DNA of 32,420 bases. It comes from an uncultured Hippea sp. (lineage in GTDB: Bacteria; Campylobacterota_A; Desulfurellia; JAADFJ01). Both the position numbers and the translations under genes were made by a program. Location: NCBI GenBank assembly GCA_913009315.1, contig CAJVZA010000016.1, positions 1-32,420 of the forward strand, read 5' to 3'. Positions within the stretch are counted from its first letter, which is position 1. Each line of letters starts with the position of its first letter. Under the pieces are notes generated by a model that searched no databases, was not told where the DNA came from, and was given only the letters and a program-made list of their open reading frames with translations. This document shows, in pieces, positions 4,898-32,420 of the stretch.

Positions 4898-5827
4898 TTA
4901 TAATTTAGCGTTCCGAATCAGCAGCCATATAAAAAACGGTCCTCCCAATATAGATGTTATAATACCTACCGGTATTTGAGCAGGAGGCACTATAATTCTT
5001 CCGATCTCATTGGAAACGGCAAGAAACAGACCTCCAAAAAAAAATGTCCCTACAAGCATGTATTTATGATCTCTGCCTATAGTCATTTTTATTATATGCG
5101 GAACCATCATTCCTACAAATCCGATCGGGCCGGCAACCGATACTATGATTGCCGTTGAAAGTGAAGTCAAAAAAAACAGCGCCGCTTTGATCTGTTTTAC
5201 GTTGACACCATGAATTTTTGCAAACTCCTCCCCTGCAATAAATAGATTCAGCTCATCATAAAATCGATATATTACTGCTGAGGACAGCAGAACAGAAGGA
5301 ATTATCAGAGAAAGTTTGCCGTATCCTATTATACTCAAATCTCCCATCATCCATCTGATAATCTCAAATGATACCGTAAAATTCGCAAGATACTGCATAA
5401 GCAGAATCAAAGAAGCGAAAAAAAAATTCAAAGCTATTCCGGCAAGGAGCAGACCTCCGGGTCTTTTTGATATTCTGCCGAGCATAAATACTATTATCGT
5501 TGCAGATAACGCAGCAAGGAAAGCCAAAGCCGATAAAAGCATCTGATTATCGACCCCGATCTGAATACCTACTGCAGCTCCAAAGGCGGCTGCCGAAGCA
5601 ACACCAAGTATATATGGAGTTGCAAGATCGTTTCTGAACAGTGTTTGAAACACAGCTCCGTTGATCGAGAGTCCTGCACCTACAAAAAATGCCAGCAGAA
5701 CTTTTGGAATTCTTATATCATAAAATATGATATTGTTGTGATAACTTCCGAAAAACGGCATAACTGCAACGGCAGCTATCGACAAAGCGCATAGCAGAAA
5801 CAGTCTATTTTTGCCTGTGTCTAACAT
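4898..5827 (-). CDS. btuC: Vitamin B12 ABC transporter permease (FecCD/BtuC family)
   Basis: This inner-membrane permease of a type II ABC importer has 309 residues and eight or more hydrophobic segments. Family signatures are RIPKVLLAFFVGAGLSINGAVFQTLFRNDLATP near the N-terminus, GPIGFVGMMVPHIIKMTIG in the cytoplasmic coupling region, and the closing PAQIPVGIITSILGGPFFIWLL. It is a little shorter than E. coli BtuC (326), and the N-terminal helix is compact. Its start lies 7 bases inside the end of the ATPase gene. FecCD permeases also carry haem and siderophores. The cobalamin assignment rests on the riboswitch, on btuB/btuF and on cobO in the same run. Confidence 0.9.
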   Translation of the reverse strand: MLDTGKNRLFLLCALSIAAVAVMPFFGSYHNNIIFYDIRIPKVLLAFFVGAGLSINGAVFQTLFRNDLATPYILGVASAAAFGAAVGIQIGVDNQMLLSALAFLAALSATIIVFMLGRISKRPGGLLLAGIALNFFFASLILLMQYLANFTVSFEIIRWMMGDLSIIGYGKLSLIIPSVLLSSAVIYRFYDELNLFIAGEEFAKIHGVNVKQIKAALFFLTSLSTAIIVSVAGPIGFVGMMVPHIIKMTIGRDHKYMLVGTFFFGGLFLAVSNEIGRIIVPPAQIPVGIITSILGGPFFIWLLIRNAKL

Positions 5828-6540
5828 TTTGAAGCTGTTTTGGAAAAGGCAGATGGAGTGTACAATTTATCAATAGCTTTTCTGTCAATTTTTTTGTCGC
5901 AGAAACTGATATTGCCCGATTTCAATGCAACTATCCTGGTTGCAATTTTTGACAGCCATTCTAAATTGTGAGATGCAATTATTATAGTTTTATTCTTTGA
6001 ACATTCTTCTATTATCTTACTGAGTTTTTCGATATAATATGGATCAAGATATGTTGTCGGCTCATCGAGAAGCAAAATTTCCGGCTCCAAAACCAGCAGG
6101 GATGCAAGATACGCAAGCTCAAGCTGGCCGCCTGAAACTATGTCAAGCCTTTTGTTTTCAAGCTCCTCTATTCCGGTCAGATTCATCATTTCTCTGCAGA
6201 CAGACAAAGCTTTGCGGTCATCATGAAAAAGAGATCGATACGGATAACGCGAAAAAAGTAGAAATTCCATAAGTGTAAAAGGCACAGGTGCTATATTTTG
6301 AGGTAGAAGTGAAACCGTTTTTGCGAGCTCTTTCGTATGATATGATGCAATCGGTTTTCCCAGCAGATAAACCTGTTTTGTTGGATAGAACCCTGCAATA
6401 GCTTTTAGAAGTGTTGATTTTCCGGCTCCGTTCGGGCCTATCAAGGCACAGATATCGCGCGATTTTATTGTCAGCGAAATATCCTTCAAAATTTGCTTTT
6501 CCGAAAGATTAATATCAAGAGATTTAATCTCAATTGTCAT
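5821..6540 (-). CDS. btuD: Vitamin B12 ABC transporter ATP-binding protein (BtuD/FepC family)
   Basis: This cytoplasmic ATPase drives the BtuC permease. In its 239 residues the Walker A motif is GPNGAGKST (35-43), the Q-loop lies in LLPQN (~81), the signature is VSGGQ (135-139), Walker B is ILLLDEPTTYLDP (155-167), and the switch histidine is H191 (ASHNLEWL). The residues after the signature (LELAYLAS) diverge from the usual RQRVLLAR stretch, which is common in BtuD-like proteins. It overlaps btuC by 7 bases and follows the btuF stop by 3 bases, so the three are co-translated from one mRNA. Confidence 0.92.
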   Translation of the reverse strand: MTIEIKSLDINLSEKQILKDISLTIKSRDICALIGPNGAGKSTLLKAIAGFYPTKQVYLLGKPIASYHTKELAKTVSLLPQNIAPVPFTLMEFLLFSRYPYRSLFHDDRKALSVCREMMNLTGIEELENKRLDIVSGGQLELAYLASLLVLEPEILLLDEPTTYLDPYYIEKLSKIIEECSKNKTIIIASHNLEWLSKIATRIVALKSGNISFCDKKIDRKAIDKLYTPSAFSKTASKC

Positions 6541-9528: not shown

Positions 9529-9704
9529 CTACACGAATTGCTCTGTATCAGCTAAGACCGAAATAATAATTTCCGCTTCGGCAAAACACCGATTCGCATC
9601 ATAAGCGTGACGGAGAGTCAATTGCCGCCCGTTGCAATTCCTTATTTATCAAGTCTGCGTTTCTCACAAAATGACTCTGACCGAGTATGCGTTTATAATA
9701 AACT

Positions 9705-9725
9705 ACCACCGTCAAAGACGGTGGT
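9705..9725 (-). repeat. Perfect hairpin, likely right-end stem of an IS200/IS605 remnant
   Basis: ACCACCGTC (9705-9713), AAA, GACGGTGGT (9717-9725) form a perfect 9-bp stem with a 3-base loop, 19 bases beyond the stop of the tnpA remnant. IS200/IS605 elements carry such subterminal hairpins, which TnpA recognises. A second small stem, GCCTC-TAAAA-GAGGC (9741-9755), overlaps the tnpA stop. The rest of 9541-9704 holds no gene that I can recognise. Confidence 0.6.
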
Positions 9726-9744
9726 TTTGTGAAGAAGAACGCCT

Positions 9745-9936
9745 CTAAAAGAGGCTAAACTGCTGTTGCTCCTTCTCATGCTTTCTTTCTATTTCTTCCT
9801 GATATTTAACATATCTTTTGATCAACTCTTCATCAGTACCTACCGTAGTGACAAAGTAGCCTATTGCCCGGAAATGATTTCCCCAGTAAGGTTTCTTTCT
9901 CATATTCGGATAGCTTTTAAATAACTTTATTGCAAC
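9745..9936 (-). pseudogene. tnpA: IS200/IS605 family transposase TnpA, C-terminal remnant
   Basis: The minus-strand frame ending at the TAG 9745-9747 reads AIKLFKSYPNMRKKPYWG, then NHFRAIGYFVTTVGTDEELI and KRYVKYQEEIERKHEKEQ. This is the C-terminal third of a Y1 transposase: the WG-HFRA-GYFV-TVG segment and the YVKYQ helix, where the catalytic tyrosine lies. The HUH histidine pair and the rest of the N-terminal domain are absent. Homology stops at ~9933, where the plus strand becomes a dehydrogenase fragment. The element is therefore broken and could move only if a full TnpA acted on it. No ATG precedes the homologous part. Confidence 0.85.
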
Positions 9937-11790: not shown

Positions 11791-12312
11791 ATGCTGAAAG
11801 AAGAAACGGTGAATGCGCTTAATGAGCAGATGAGAAAAGAGTTTTACTCGTCATATCTTTATCTCTCAATGTCGGGTCATTTTGAACAAATCGGCTTAAA
11901 AGGCTTTGCACATTGGATGTTTGTGCAATATCAAGAGGAAACCGATCATGCACTGAAATTTTTTAATTACCTGAAATCGCAAGGCAGCAGAATCAATCTA
12001 ATGGATATAAAAGAACCCGAACATGAATGGAGTTCTATTCTTATGGTTTTCAATGAAACATTGAATCATGAACAATATGTCACTTCCTGCATCAACGATC
12101 TTGTGGATATATCGGAAAAATCAAAAGACAGAGCAACATGGAATTTTTTGCAGTGGTTCGTCGATGAGCAGATAGAAGAAGAGGAAAATGTAAGAAATGT
12201 CATTGATCAGCTTAATTTAATAGACGATAACAAAAGCGCTTTGTTTTTATTGGATAAAGAGATTGGGCAGAGGATTTATGTGCCTCTTGCAGCCGGTCAG
12301 ACCGGCAAATAA
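11791..12312 (+). CDS. ftnA: Non-haem ferritin
   Basis: This 24-mer cage protein oxidises Fe(II) and stores ferric iron in the cytoplasm. The 173-residue product is of normal bacterial length. Helix A has LNEQMRKEFYSSYLYLSMSG with ferroxidase Glu17 in the usual spot. Helix B has YQEETDHALKFFNYL, giving the conserved E-x2-H pair. Helix D holds FLQWFVDEQIEEEENVRN with further ferroxidase ligands. The ATG at 11791 is chosen because AAGGAG (11778-11783) stands 7 bases before it; a GTG at 11761 in the same frame would add ten residues lacking family similarity. The gene is monocistronic, with its own promoter upstream and a strong hairpin downstream. Bacterioferritin is excluded by the lack of the haem-ligand Met context and by the E-x2-H pattern. 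Confidence 0.93.
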   Translation: MLKEETVNALNEQMRKEFYSSYLYLSMSGHFEQIGLKGFAHWMFVQYQEETDHALKFFNYLKSQGSRINLMDIKEPEHEWSSILMVFNETLNHEQYVTSCINDLVDISEKSKDRATWNFLQWFVDEQIEEEENVRNVIDQLNLIDDNKSALFLLDKEIGQRIYVPLAAGQTGK

Positions 12313-12344: not shown

Positions 12345-12392
12345 CTCATGAAAAACCGATGTACAATAAATATGTCCGCGGTTTTTCATGAG
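12345..12392 (+). terminator. Hairpin after ferritin, probable terminator
   Basis: CTCATGAAAAACCG (12345-12358) and CGGTTTTTCATGAG (12379-12392) are a perfect 14-bp inverted repeat around a 20-base loop, 33 bases after the ferritin stop. CTTTTCTG follows, a modest T-run. The right arm also belongs to a dispersed intergenic repeat (see 27511-27533 and 30094-30304), so it may double as a repeat element. Confidence 0.6.
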
Positions 12393-12412
12393 CTTTTCTG
12401 TAGGACGGCTCT

Positions 12413-12560
12413 ATTAATTCCGGGCGTTTCAAATTTTGAAAGTCCGAATCAGTCTTCTTAAAAAGGCTATCACCGAAATTTGCAACAAAAAGGGCGGCGG
12501 TGGATTTTGGACTCAAGATGGTCGTTACGGATTAATAGAAATACCCTTAATAACCGGTCA
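12413..12560. repeat. Intergenic repeat, copy A
   Basis: This gene-free stretch resembles 17046-17168. Both open with AATTCCGGGYG, and both contain an AAAAAGRGGCSGC block followed by an ACTC/AGTC-(G)AAG segment and GGATTAATA, then ACCCTT-AAT. The middle is less alike. Its opening also resembles 23338-23375. The remaining 12561-12651 holds only a small ATCGT-AA-ACGAT stem and no gene. Confidence 0.45.
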
Positions 12561-12651
12561 GTATCTCAATTAAAAGAATCCTGTAAATAAGTGGTCTGCA
12601 ATAGTCGCATCACATCGGTTTTTTATCGTAAACGATACGATGAAAATTTTC

Positions 12652-16972: not shown

Positions 16973-17045
16973 TTAAATAACGGCAGCAGTAAATACCTGC
17001 AGAGGTGCTGAACAAAGTTTAAATACAAATTTCAAAGCACTCCTA

Positions 17046-17165
17046 TAAAATTCCGGGTGCAAATTACAGGCAGCAGCGGGGCTGTTTTCCGGATTTGCTG
17101 TATAAAAAAGAGGCCGCTTTGGAGTCGAAGACGATTGTTCATGGATTAATATATAGAAGCACCCT
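17046..17165. repeat. Intergenic repeat, copy B, inside the gsp operon
   Basis: The 193-base gap between gspG and gspH carries a stretch similar to 12413-12560 (shared AATTCCGGGYG start, AAAAARAGGCCGC block and GGATTAATA near the end). GGCAGCAGCGGGGCTG can fold on itself weakly. Placed just after the major pseudopilin gene, it could separate gspG from the lower-level minor pseudopilins by RNA processing; that is inference. Confidence 0.45.
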
Positions 17166-23238: not shown

Positions 23239-23462
23239 GCCGTCGACGCAGAGATCACAAGAAGATCAGGCAATCTTTTTAGGCTCAGTTTAAAGATATG
23301 CAAGGCTTTCTATTCCCGGACAGTCTTCCTTCCATCTCTATCAATTCCGGACATTTTGAATCGAAAGTCGGAAGGTCAGTATCCGCAGGCAGTGCTCAAA
23401 AGCAAGGCTGCTGCCGGATCTGCAAGCAAAAGAAACGATTAGTTTTCAACTCGAGATAACCG

Positions 23463-24173
23463 TTATTGATTAACAGAGAGATTTTCTGATATAAAACTGT
23501 TTATTGCAGCAAAAAGCATCTCAGGATTTTCAATCTGAGCCATATGTCCGGAATTCCTGATCTTGAAAACGGTTGTATTAAAACAATTTGCCAGTTCTTC
23601 TGATAATTCTGCAGGCGTCATAACATCGGAATCACCTGCAATAACCAGCACCGGAACTTTGATCTGTTCTGCCGCAGCATGCCCGTCATAGTTTCTGCAG
23701 GCAAGAAAATCGTCATAAAGTGATTTTTTATTCTTCTCCATCATCTGAACCGCTTTATTTTTCTGCTCCGTCGATGCAGAAAATGAAAATGACCATTTGG
23801 CAATTGTCTTAATTGTCTGCACAGGAGAATTTTTCAAGCCATTTAGAATTTTTGAATTTACCGGCAGTTTCAGGCCGCTTCCAATAATTACTACAGCCTT
23901 TATTTTGTCGGATCTTGAAGCAGAAACGATAGCTATTGCACCACCCATCGAATGTCCTATAAGCACAACATTCGCTAAATCGTTTCTACTTATGTAATTT
24001 ATAATCCAGTCGCTATATGCATCAATGCTGTCACATTTTCCCTGTTGATCTGCGTGCCCCGGAAGATCCGGTGTATGTATTTTATAATCTCCGGCCTCAG
24101 CAAACTGTTTTTTGACATCATTCCATATACTGCCGTCATTTCCGGCACCATGTATAAAAAGTAAATTTCTCAT
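23463..24173 (-). CDS. Alpha/beta-hydrolase fold protein
   Basis: This 236-residue cytoplasmic hydrolase has no signal peptide. The fold marks are LLFIHGAGNDGSIW (oxyanion loop HGAG at 8-11), the nucleophile elbow GHSMGG with Ser75, the acid in AGDSDVMTP (Asp183), and His210 in NSGHMAQIENP, so the triad is complete. Its ATG overlaps the stop of the CoA-transferase beta gene by 4 bases (24170-24173), which ties it to the acyl-CoA module. A role as thioesterase, or hydrolase of a ring-opened or ester intermediate, is inference; the substrate cannot be told from sequence. The closest generic families are the BioH/MhpC-like carboxyl-ester or C-C hydrolases. Confidence 0.85.
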   Translation of the reverse strand: MRNLLFIHGAGNDGSIWNDVKKQFAEAGDYKIHTPDLPGHADQQGKCDSIDAYSDWIINYISRNDLANVVLIGHSMGGAIAIVSASRSDKIKAVVIIGSGLKLPVNSKILNGLKNSPVQTIKTIAKWSFSFSASTEQKNKAVQMMEKNKKSLYDDFLACRNYDGHAAAEQIKVPVLVIAGDSDVMTPAELSEELANCFNTTVFKIRNSGHMAQIENPEMLFAAINSFISENLSVNQ

Positions 24174-28879: not shown

Positions 28880-29710
28880 ATGATTGATACAAATAAGATC
28901 ATTGACGCAGCAAAAAATCTTTTCCCATTTCCCATTGTGGCGAGAAAACTTCTTATGGCTATAGAAACAGATGCAAGTGCCGAGCAGATTACTCGCATAG
29001 CCTCATTAGATCCGTCTATAACTGCTAATATAATTACTATGGCAAATTCTCCGTTTTATGCAGCAAGAAGAGAGATAACAGACGTTATTCACGCAACGAC
29101 AAGAATCGGGTTTGAAACAGTAAGGCAAATTGCCATAACAAAAGGACTCAGTAATCTATTTTCAAGAACAGATTTAACTGATAAATTGCTGTGGGAGCAT
29201 TCTATTGCGGTTTCTATTCTGAACAAACAATTGGCAAGAAGAATTGGAGGAGTTTCGGAAAGCACTGCTTATACAATCGGTTTGCTGCACGATTTCGGAA
29301 AGGTCATATTAAAAAGAGCAATACCTAAAGATTACAATACAGTGCTGGAGATATGCTATAACGAGAATAAAGAAGTCAGAGCTGTTGAACTGGATATTCT
29401 GGGCATGACTCATGATCATTTTATTGGAGAAATAGCTAAAATCTGGAATCTCGGCGATATAATAACTACTGCCTTGTCGAATCATCATGGACCATATGAT
29501 ATTATTTGTAGCGAGGCAAGCAGTTATGCACCTATAACAGCGTTATCTGATGCTATTGCCAATAGTGAGGGAATCGGAAGAAAAAAGCCGTTAAATATTG
29601 ATATAGAAAAAATCGAACCATTTAAATTGACCGGCATAGACATGAAAGATGTTAAATTTGTCAGAGAAAAGGGTTTGAAAGAGTTCAAAGATACTATAAA
29701 TTTTTTCTGA
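28880..29710 (+). CDS. HDOD domain signalling protein
   Basis: This 276-residue cytoplasmic protein has an HDOD domain across most of its length. FPFPIVARKLLMAIETDASAEQITRIASLDPSITANIITMANSPFY is the typical opening, followed by DVIHATTRIGFETVRQIAITKGL, the SIAVSILNKQLARRIG helix, and YTIGLLHDFGKVILKRAIP with an intact HD pair. Family members act as non-enzymatic signalling scaffolds in motility, biofilm or cyclic-di-GMP circuits; no GGDEF, EAL or receiver domain is attached here. ATG 28880 is chosen because homology begins a few residues later. Open codons reach back to a TTG at 28787, but that extra stretch lies in the divergent promoter region. It is transcribed away from gcdH. Confidence 0.86.
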   Translation: MIDTNKIIDAAKNLFPFPIVARKLLMAIETDASAEQITRIASLDPSITANIITMANSPFYAARREITDVIHATTRIGFETVRQIAITKGLSNLFSRTDLTDKLLWEHSIAVSILNKQLARRIGGVSESTAYTIGLLHDFGKVILKRAIPKDYNTVLEICYNENKEVRAVELDILGMTHDHFIGEIAKIWNLGDIITTALSNHHGPYDIICSEASSYAPITALSDAIANSEGIGRKKPLNIDIEKIEPFKLTGIDMKDVKFVREKGLKEFKDTINFF

Positions 29711-29776
29711 AACCTTCCATTATTGATTACTTTTGATAGAATGGCTTGGGATAAATAAGGTGAGTTATATGGATGC

Positions 29777-29852
29777 GGGCGATTAGCTCAGCTGGGAGAG
29801 TGCTGCCTTCGCATGGCAGAGGTCAGGGGTTCGATCCCCCTATCGTCCACCA
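29777..29852 (+). tRNA. tRNA-Ala (anticodon CGC)
   Basis: This is a complete 76-base cloverleaf. The acceptor is GGGCGAT (29777-29783) paired with ATCGTCC (29842-29848). The D arm is AGCTCAGCTGGGAGAGT, and the anticodon stem CTGCC/GGCAG encloses loop TTCGCAT with anticodon CGC (reads GCG). The T arm has GGTTCGATCCC, and the discriminator A with CCA is encoded in the DNA (29849-29852). Bacterial alanine identity is supported by G3-U70 (third G of GGG opposite T of GTCC). Confidence 0.97.
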
Positions 29853-30093
29853 AACATTACCTGATTGAAAAATGTTTGATAAATACTTCTCATTTCCTTA
29901 GTTTTAATTGTCGATAACGGTCGGGCTATACCCGGTAAGGGACTTCGAATCGTTTCCGTTTTAATTTACTATTAATTTTATTACACTGCTAAAAGCCTCA
30001 AATTCAGTACTAAAACCCTTATTGAGTACAGCCTTTGCTGCCGGCTGATTTCTTATTCAGTCTGTGTTGTAAATTCAATATCTTTTCCTTCAA

Positions 30094-30304
30094 GAGACCA
30101 CTGCACAATAAGCAAATTCACAGCTTTTCATGAGGTTTTCTATAGACAAGGCAAACTTCTGAAGGACTAACGGGTTAATTCAAAGAAGCAAAACGCAAGT
30201 ATATGGAAAACCTCATAAAGCCCGCAGGGAAGGCTGATATCGGGCGGGCAATCTTCAGGAAATTAAATTCTATAGAGCGCTTCTGTTTATTGTGCAGCGG
30301 TCTC
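30094..30304. repeat. Large imperfect palindrome, possible MITE-like or REP-like element
   Basis: The outer arms 30094-30114 and 30284-30304 match at 19 of 21 positions as inverted repeats, both reading inward from GAGACC-(A/G)CTGCACAATAA. Further in, CTATAG and CTGAAG recur in both arms in the same order. An inner pair, ATGAGGTTTTC (30130-30140) and its exact complement (30206-30216), is also present. The left arm's 30100-30150 resembles 12359-12408 beside the ferritin hairpin. No transposase frame lies inside and I see no flanking direct repeat. Confidence 0.6.
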
Positions 30305-30501
30305 ATAATCAGATATTTTTGCCGGAGCAATACGAAAATTATTTACCTGCGGCGGATTTTCAAAAAACATTCCGCCGCTTACTGAAAATGCCAAGCATAA
30401 TCGTTAAAATATTTCAAAGACAAAGGACAATTCGCAGCCACTCGTCTGGACTAAAACGTTTAAATCAGATATAACAGGAAAAATATTTGTTGCAAGCAAA
30501 A

Positions 30502-30572
30502 AGTCTCTCTTAATTACGAAGAAAATAACTCTGCGTAATGACAGAAATAAGATTTGCAACGCAGGGGAGACT
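30502..30572 (+). ncRNA. Predicted structured leader upstream of the secreted PKD protein
   Basis: AGTCTCTC (30502-30509) pairs with GGGAGACT (30565-30572), 8 bp with one G-U. Immediately inside the right strand, CTGCGT (30531-30536) pairs with ACGCAG (30559-30564). The two stems stack on one side and leave a 21-base bulge on the other and a 22-base loop. The element ends 75 bases before the ATG at 30648. It matches no riboswitch consensus that I can recall, and a decayed repeat is an alternative. Confidence 0.35.
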
Positions 30573-30647
30573 GATTTAGGCTCAGATTGTTTATGAATTA
30601 TTAGAGGTGCCAATAGGTATAACAGTCGAAGTTTAAGGAGATTTATT

Positions 30648-32420
30648 ATGAAAAGACGGGTGAGTTATCTATTATTTATATTTTTTATGCTGTTTGGAGG
30701 CTCGCAAATTGCAAAAGCGCAAGTAACTGGAAAAACCTTCACCATCAAACCGACTGCATCCGTTTCCTGGAACCGAATGCTTCAGCAGCAGGCACTAAGA
30801 CCGTATTCTGCTGAAAGTCAAAAGCTGCGCGTCATACCGTTTATACCTGCTCCGCCGGAAAGAGAGATCGGCATTCCGCGGAAAGAATACACGATACCTT
30901 TGTCCGTTAGAAGTCCCGCAGAGACCGCTCCGGCTTTTTCATCTTTTGGACTCAACTCAAATTTTCAGGCGCTGTCGGACAATGACAAAGCAATACCTCC
31001 CGATACAATGGGGGCAGTAGGTCCAAATTATGTTATGACTATGCTTAATTCTCAGGTAAAAATACAGGATAAATCCGGCATCACTGTTAGTGCAGCAGTT
31101 TCATTATCAACATTCTGGAGTTCTGTGTCAGTCTCTCCCTTTGATCCAAATTTAGTATATGATTCGCTTAGCGGGCACTGGATAGCCGTATGCAGTTCCA
31201 ATGGCGGCGGTTCAAATTCTAAGATACTGCTTGCAGTCACTCGGACGAGTGATCCGACAGGTATCTGGGATTTTTACTCATTTAAGGCGGATTCAAACAG
31301 CATTGATTGGGCGGATTTTCCGAGAGTGGGCATAAACTCCAAATGGATTGCAATTACTGCCAACATGTTTAACGGTTCAAGCGTCTCACCTGTGGGTTCA
31401 AAGATGTGGGTTATCGATAAATCTACTGTTATTGCGGGCGGCACTGCAGCATATACGGAATTTCCGACCGGTTTCGACGATAATACAGGATCCGGCAGCG
31501 GCTTTACCCTCACCCCTGCAGTGACATTCGATTCAACAGAAGCAAATCTATATATCGTTGATAACGGAATAACCGATGGCAGCGGCAATCAATTAATACG
31601 ACTTTCAGAACTCTCAGGCACTGCTTCTTCTCCAGTATGGTCGGTTGCGCCTGATTCAAATGGTCCGTTCCCCGGGTCGGGAGAATTCGATGTCGTATAT
31701 AATTACAATGGAACTCAGATTGAAGCAGCACAGAAAGGAACAACGGATCTCATTGACACCAATGATCCGCGAATTCTTAATGCTGTTTTTCGCAACGGCA
31801 AGCTTTGGTTTGTCCATACAGGCGGATTGCCCGTCACCGGAACAGCCGACAGAACGGCAATATTCTGGTATCAGGTCGATCCGGCTCGGCTTAATTCAAC
31901 CGGAAACCCGATCGTGCAATCAGGGGTCATAGATCCGGGAGTCGGCGGACATCTCTTTTTCCCCGGTATTGCCGTAAATAAAGATAATGATGCGGTTATA
32001 GGCTTTTCACGCTCTGATGCAAACAGATATGCAGAAGCGGCTTTTGTCTCCCGCTCTGCAAACAACCCGGCAGACGCAATGAGTCAAATAACAGTGCTTA
32101 AAAAAGGAGAGGCGAGCTACAGCAAGGGTTTCGGCAATGGAGATATACGCTGGGGCGATTACAGCTCTACTGTAGTTGACCCGGCAGATGACACTACATT
32201 CTGGACGATTCAGGAATATGCCGCTGAGTCCGTGTCGGGAGGCACTCCAAATGATGACCGTTGGGGAACATGGTGGGGAGAAATCACTCCTTCATACACA
32301 GTCAACACACCCCCTGTTGCCGACGCAGGTGCTAATCAGAATGTCACAACAGGATCAACGGTAACATTGAATGGCAGCGGCAGTTTTGATGCAGACGGAA
32401 ATCCATTAACCTACCAATGG
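30648..32420 (+). CDS. Secreted PKD-domain protein, N-terminal 591 residues (runs off the window)
   Basis: The frame opens at ATG 30648 behind AAGGAG (30636-30641) and stays open to the last base. A signal peptide MKRRVSYLLFIFFMLFGGSQ-IAKA is followed by Gln25. Residues ~100-540 form a large extracellular domain with ALSDNDKAIPPDTMGAVGPN (111-130), repeated W/G/D-rich beta segments (HWIAVCSSNGGGSN; FPRVGINSKWIAITANMF; RNGKLWFVHTGG) and a closing GDYSSTVVDPADDTTFWTIQ-EYA and RWGTWWGEI. The pattern suggests a beta-propeller-like fold, but I cannot name the enzyme or ligand. At ~555-591 a PKD/Ig-like domain begins (PPVADAGANQNVTTGSTVTL, then GSFDADGNPLTYQW) and is cut by the window. It is a good candidate substrate for the T2SS encoded nearby. 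Confidence 0.88.
   Translation, partial: MKRRVSYLLFIFFMLFGGSQIAKAQVTGKTFTIKPTASVSWNRMLQQQALRPYSAESQKLRVIPFIPAPPEREIGIPRKEYTIPLSVRSPAETAPAFSSFGLNSNFQALSDNDKAIPPDTMGAVGPNYVMTMLNSQVKIQDKSGITVSAAVSLSTFWSSVSVSPFDPNLVYDSLSGHWIAVCSSNGGGSNSKILLAVTRTSDPTGIWDFYSFKADSNSIDWADFPRVGINSKWIAITANMFNGSSVSPVGSKMWVIDKSTVIAGGTAAYTEFPTGFDDNTGSGSGFTLTPAVTFDSTEANLYIVDNGITDGSGNQLIRLSELSGTASSPVWSVAPDSNGPFPGSGEFDVVYNYNGTQIEAAQKGTTDLIDTNDPRILNAVFRNGKLWFVHTGGLPVTGTADRTAIFWYQVDPARLNSTGNPIVQSGVIDPGVGGHLFFPGIAVNKDNDAVIGFSRSDANRYAEAAFVSRSANNPADAMSQITVLKKGEASYSKGFGNGDIRWGDYSSTVVDPADDTTFWTIQEYAAESVSGGTPNDDRWGTWWGEITPSYTVNTPPVADAGANQNVTTGSTVTLNGSGSFDADGNPLTYQW

Follow-up and report, generated by a model that had tools for sequence, protein, structure and literature searches.

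What is the strong palindrome of 211 bases at 30094-30304 of the window (the whole 32,420-nt stretch analyzed here, from an uncultured Hippea sp.), and does it serve the genes beside it? A sequence-only reading had described nested arms with no coding frame between them and core fragments elsewhere in the window, and had proposed either a non-autonomous mobile element or a REP-like repeat that supplies terminators to its neighbors. The description of the structure was reproduced: the arms match in order, as listed here, and no ORF of at least 80 amino acids (aa) was found inside, only 51- and 60-aa frames crossing the palindrome.

30094-30114 with 30284-30304, outer arms, 21 nt, 90% complementary (19/21)
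30127-30147 with 30199-30219, inner arms, 86% complementary (18/21)

Folded as single-stranded DNA, 30094-30304 reached -36.1 kcal/mol (shuffled sequences, -20.5 ± 3.2; z = -4.8), and 0 of 200 shuffles were as stable. The palindrome lies between a tRNA-Ala gene (29777-29852) and a frame that starts at 30648, continues past the window edge and gave no match in an NCBIfam search. An Rfam search of the window placed the palindrome in no family and returned only a tRNA and a cobalamin riboswitch (RF00174, 9341-9521, minus strand, 92 bits). Exact copies of the core ATGAGGTTTTC stand only in the two arms of one inner hairpin, at 30130 and 30206 (minus strand); copies with one mismatch each occur at 12388, 18476 and 27516 (five exact or one-mismatch matches in the window; 0.95 expected).

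The palindrome belongs to a dispersed family, here called MITE1. The sequence-only reading had staked its case on further copies in the genome, and at least 40 MITE1 loci, as many as were scored, were found in the window's own genome (G000; about 88% complete, with 1.74 Mb in 96 contigs). The terminal-repeat pattern TGAGACCRCTGCRCARTA matched 164 genomic sites with up to 2 mismatches (86 + 78), and the reversed pattern, scanned in the own genome at the same threshold, matched 0. MITE1 is a genus-restricted family, with matches in 3 of 61 genomes searched, namely all three of the genus; in a named genome collection, from which G000 itself may be missing, a pattern scan matched 14 stretches, every one in the MAG Campylobacterota bacterium M_MaxBin.016 (JAADFJ01). 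Canonical copies are about 263 bp long, with ends (T)GAGACCACTGCACAATAARC and a flank duplication of TNA within ATNAT. The fetched loci contained 60 pairs of terminal repeats spanning 47 to 581 bp, of which 22 are mini-elements of 47-55 bp, hardly more than two terminal repeats; the other size groups are canonical (~263 bp) and composite (~335-457 bp). MITE1 thus has the features by which MITEs are recognized (terminal inverted repeats, dispersed multiple copies and a length below 500 bp with no transposase gene), although a few elements, composite or loosely paired, exceed that length. Sixteen copies measure 255-276 bp, and an alignment of 13 of them (three were left out for runs of N, and the window copy is absent) gave a consensus fold in which columns 1-28 pair with 253-280 as an outer stem, enclosing hairpin A (30-130) and hairpin B (141-252). 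For 16 of the 40 MITE1 loci scored, a contig end is no more than about 150 bases away, so the repeats probably break the assembly.

Flanking sequences and comparison with the sister species (G001; about 91% identical to G000 in aligned flanks) bear on mobility. Identical 5-bp flanks occur in 26 of the 60 pairs. ATNAT stands on both sides in 34 pairs, with the same center base in 26 (including ATGAT/ATGAT and ATCAT/ATCAT) and different ones in 8. The target-site duplications that the sequence-only reading had hoped for are therefore present across the family, but the window copy, flanked by TTCAA on the left and ATAAT on the right, has no intact 5-bp duplication. The decisive case is an element inside a gene:

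locus L002 (contig C43 of G000), 1412-1674 of the locus, MITE1 splitting a formate dehydrogenase alpha gene

Both halves of the interrupted frame match formate dehydrogenase alpha, with the Pfam Molybdopterin domain divided between them, and the frame at the corresponding place in the sister species (L114) is uninterrupted (TIGR01591, 819.8 bits; cut-off, 666). The sister sequence reads AACAATAATGCA with a single ATAAT, and L002 reads AACAATAAT-element-ATAATGCA, a precise empty site that shows past MITE1 mobility. Formate oxidation by the interrupted enzyme may have been lost in G000. At a second site, L114 holds an element at 5634-6061 (TTGCTTAAT-element-ATAATATGAC) where L040 reads TTGCTTAATATGAC; only TAA(T) is duplicated, and a duplication of 3 bp (TAA), the element itself beginning with T and ending with A, fits better than one of 5 bp. 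Both empty sites show insertion since the two species split. Two further comparisons (L143/L090 and L026/L149) resemble one-sided insertions, although their junctions are not clean. At one orthologous site G000 has a 52-bp element (L075, 1493-1544) and the sister species a 457-bp composite (L141, 1102-1558), which suggests in-place shrinkage or replacement. Taken together, the terminal inverted repeats, the TNA/ATNAT duplication, the copy number and the empty site in the sister species bear out the proposal of a non-autonomous mobile element.

The ends of MITE1 also point to what may have moved it. Contig C15 of G000 carries a 291-aa ORF in which DUF772 and a partial DDE_Tnp_1 domain were recognized, and a terminal repeat, GAGACCACTGCACAGTAA, lies 138 bp upstream of it. 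This gene is a remnant: much of its DDE domain is missing, it has no ATNAT flanks, and a search for a right terminal repeat found none. Its closest plasmid relative is a 421-aa IS5-family transposase of Aliarcobacter cibarius, with 56% identity along the whole C15 protein, which lacks most of the C-terminal 140 residues of its counterpart; the plasmid protein scores above the NCBIfam IS5_4 cut-off (179.8 versus 140). The plasmid insertion sequence (IS) is 1529 bp long, its ends are GAGACCACTGCA / GAGCCCACTGCA, and ATATA flanks it left and right; its 3.8-kb locus has two GAGACCACTGCA-type sites at up to 1 mismatch (3 in 300 shuffles). The ends are thus common to MITE1, the decayed IS5-type gene and the plasmid IS, and the likeness of MITE1 to the other two is confined to them. 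Within the class, the 24 genomes besides G000 yielded no relative of the C15 transposase, and all 25 yielded no intact parent IS; viral contigs yielded no intact element related to the plasmid IS. With completeness at about 88% and 16 of the 40 scored MITE1 loci close to contig ends, the parent could have escaped assembly. The parent element sought by the sequence-only reading therefore has a decayed counterpart with the same terminal repeat but not an intact one. We infer that an IS5-type DDE transposase probably once moved MITE1. Just outside the C15 terminal repeat, inspection by eye found the C-terminal end of what appears to be another transposase, reading away (L066, 2444-2707), an arrangement that suggests one IS inserted in another.

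The window copy itself was parsed against these relatives (arms, related genomic loci and an nhmmer match with E = 1.1e-52 over 30094-30270) and shares the orientation of canonical copies whose hairpin A lies at the left.

30094-30304, plus strand, MITE1 copy of 211 bp (30093-30305 when the terminal T/A pair is included)
30094-30114, plus strand, left terminal inverted repeat GAGACCACTGCACAATAAGCA
30123-30221, plus strand, hairpin A, its arms carrying ATGAGGTTTTC (from the inner arms, the fold and the consensus fold of 13 full-length copies), with a smaller hairpin inside at about 30156-30189
30222-30283, plus strand, remnant of hairpin B (from comparison of copies and MITE2 ends)
30284-30304, minus strand, right terminal inverted repeat, followed by ATAAT at 30305-30309

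MITE2 is a second palindromic family of about 161 bp with candidate ends GGGCAMYTCTRTTAAT. It has 50 matches in G000, 49 in the sister species and 0 in genome G002 (40 candidates were scored in each of the first two), and composite MITE1 copies hold it inside hairpin A or B. The window copy is about 90% identical to a canonical copy as far as 30270. Of hairpin B it keeps the left arm, which runs into TTCTATAGAGCGCTTCTG, a stretch resembling the end of a MITE2, and from there into the right end of MITE1; the sister-species copy L043, 226 bp long, is joined in the same way and retains more at the right. The joining sequence is explained by MITE2 copies of the GGGCACTTCTGTTAAT type, and CTTCTG occurs in the MITE1 right arm too, which together suggest a MITE2 insertion followed by a microhomology deletion; most of hairpin B was apparently lost from the window copy in this way. 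The flanks can be read as a degenerate TNA, TCA on the left and TAA on the right. No orthologue of the site was found in G001 or G002, and since the left duplication is not intact either, insertion at this exact place is deduced from the behavior of the family. The lack of a left duplication, and of an intact transposase in the assembly, likewise suggests that the copy is now inert. The palindrome is an old, internally rearranged and degraded copy of a type II MITE.

Relics of both families were recognized elsewhere in the window:

12352-12404, plus strand, decayed left part of a MITE1 relic, just 3' of a gene ending at 12312 (nhmmer 12355-12404, E = 0.001; BLAST, 44 nt, 73%, E = 0.082)
12405-12546, minus strand, decayed MITE2 nested in that relic (nhmmer, E = 2.6e-21)
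12547-12589, plus strand, possible right part of the same relic (TTAATAACCGGTCAGTATCTCAATT, matched by eye to L061; nhmmer 12538-12569, E = 0.34)
17019-17151 and 23333-23478, further MITE2 relics (nhmmer)
30537-30611, minus strand, MITE2 relic some 230 bp past the palindrome (nhmmer, E = 5.6e-9; the range with the two preceding relics is 7e-11 to 6e-9)

The three pieces at 12.35 kb, judged by these matches, make up a decayed composite copy, MITE1 with a nested MITE2. Of the two distant core fragments that had been noticed, the one at 12.39 kb therefore stands as part of a MITE1 relic, but the one at 27.52 kb does not: it gave no nhmmer match at E ≤ 10, and its only BLAST match, of 16 nt (E = 0.29), is at chance level.

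The regularity of the hairpins raises another reading, that of a structured RNA or transcription terminator under selection through its transcript. Across the 13 aligned copies, pairing was kept in 96.2% of cells, and 21 of 94 pairs had changed on both sides, compared with 6.4 ± 1.9 in shuffles and 1 to 5 in slid structures, as this reading would lead one to expect. However, selection on one RNA strand predicts far more G-T than A-C cells, and outside consensus-wobble pairs the two were equally common (25 versus 27; outer stem, 11/11; hairpin A, 9/8; hairpin B, 5/8); in the terminal 20 bp of 56 elements there were 51 G-T and 70 A-C. The missing Rfam match also argues against an RNA. As for a terminator, the sole terminator-like site in 29700-30700 (30043-30062) lies outside the element. 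Neighboring genes were in tandem around 12 copies, convergent around 11 and divergent around 10, indicating no preference for gene 3' ends; these counts come from a crude ORF caller that classified 33 of 60 copies (18 others overlap a called ORF and 9 lie at a locus edge). The idea that the element supplies terminators to its neighbors was thus abandoned, and we consider selection through a transcript very improbable. Neither the terminator-site scan nor neighbor orientation disclosed any role for adjacent genes, and most likely the window copy does nothing for them beyond spacing and sequence turnover.

Equal numbers of G-T and A-C point instead to arm homogenization or decay at the level of DNA. 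Template switching can yield compensatory changes without selection, according to PMC8794818, and a DNA-level process of this kind accounts for the covariation at least as well as RNA selection does. Left and right ends differed at 2.48 of 20 positions within a copy and at 2.92 between copies (56 elements; 0 of 1000 swaps), a signal to which shared descent contributes; four of the 60 elements had been dropped beforehand for doubtful pairings. Within-copy similarity was evident in the 34 long elements (1 of 1000 swaps) and not significant in the 22 mini-elements (124 of 1000). One tentative and on balance unlikely extension is that a DNA-level process (cruciform or replication template switching, with arm-to-arm copying) holds the nested hairpins in register in each copy, giving RNA-like compensatory changes with no RNA function, and that these palindromes also cause elements to shrink in place to remnants of 49-55 bp. 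These results counsel caution, since covariation such as the 21 double-changed pairs may arise in mobile palindromes without a functional RNA; the balance of G-T and A-C offers a cheap check.

Marginally less probable still is a REP or REPIN repeat mobilized by a Y1 (RAYT) transposase. MITE1 is palindromic and high-copy, and Y1_Tnp matches (E ≤ 0.001) number six in the own genome and one in the sister species. However, REPs are 20-40 bp long (PMC3733652), and MITE1 measures about 263 bp, with ends of 20-28 bp that match IS5-type elements and with duplicated TNA flanks. Six Y1 loci were scanned for MITE1: L163 gave a partial match, some 1.1 kb away from its Y1 match, and the other five gave none. 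Thus both the REP-like label and the hoped-for link to a REP-associated transposase fell away. The window also contains a Y1 (IS200-type) transposase fragment at 9799-9933 (minus strand), with hairpin-like sequence at about 9700-9730. A chance or locus-specific palindrome, which the degraded state of the window copy and its missing left duplication might suggest, is dismissed by the 40 or more genomic loci, the fold stability (z = -4.8) and the absence of reversed-control sites.

We therefore return to MITE1 as a type II MITE, and give a rough probability of 0.93 to the whole explanation: a worn copy, an IS5-type DDE transposase as mover, insertion at TNA and later rearrangement. The transposase would have recognized the MITE1 ends and inserted the element at TNA sites, usually ATNAT, with TNA duplicated. 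A full copy would comprise about 263 bp, an outer stem of about 28 bp around hairpins A and B; the window copy would then have received MITE2 and lost most of hairpin B to a deletion, leaving it inert. Established here are the family, its ends, the flank duplication, the precise gene insertion absent from the sister species and the terminal repeat common to the IS5-type gene. Two interleaved MITE families account for the strong palindrome and, of the two distant fragments, for one; they make up many of the repeats in this deep-branching Campylobacterota lineage and lie at many contig ends.

Type II MITEs described in PMC10969869 include Chunjie of Geobacter uraniireducens and QMITE1 and QMITE2 of Coxiella burnetii. 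Like these, MITE1 is shorter than 500 bp, has terminal inverted repeats and duplicated flanks in younger copies, and occurs in tens of copies of many lengths, some very short, that are mostly intergenic; as in type II MITEs generally, it resembles an autonomous element only at its ends. It differs from the three in sequence, host and ends, in its double-hairpin body and in its nested second family. The IS1031 subgroup of the IS5 family shares the TNA target and 3-bp duplication (PMC12016507), but the member given there is 857 bp long with ends GAACCTGTCTAGTATCT, compared with the 421-aa related transposase and 1529-bp IS here; since the transposase matches NCBIfam IS5_4, this subgroup is not assigned. 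No work on MITEs in Campylobacterota, Desulfurella or Hippea appeared among the matches listed in a non-exhaustive literature search. Small repeats inserted in one another also recall the BOX, RUP and SPRITE clusters of Streptococcus pneumoniae (PMC10969869), although the sequences are unrelated and the window copy has no terminator motif. MITE1 is an element of an ordinary kind from a lineage that has been little studied, and this bacterium and its sister species carry dozens of copies of it.
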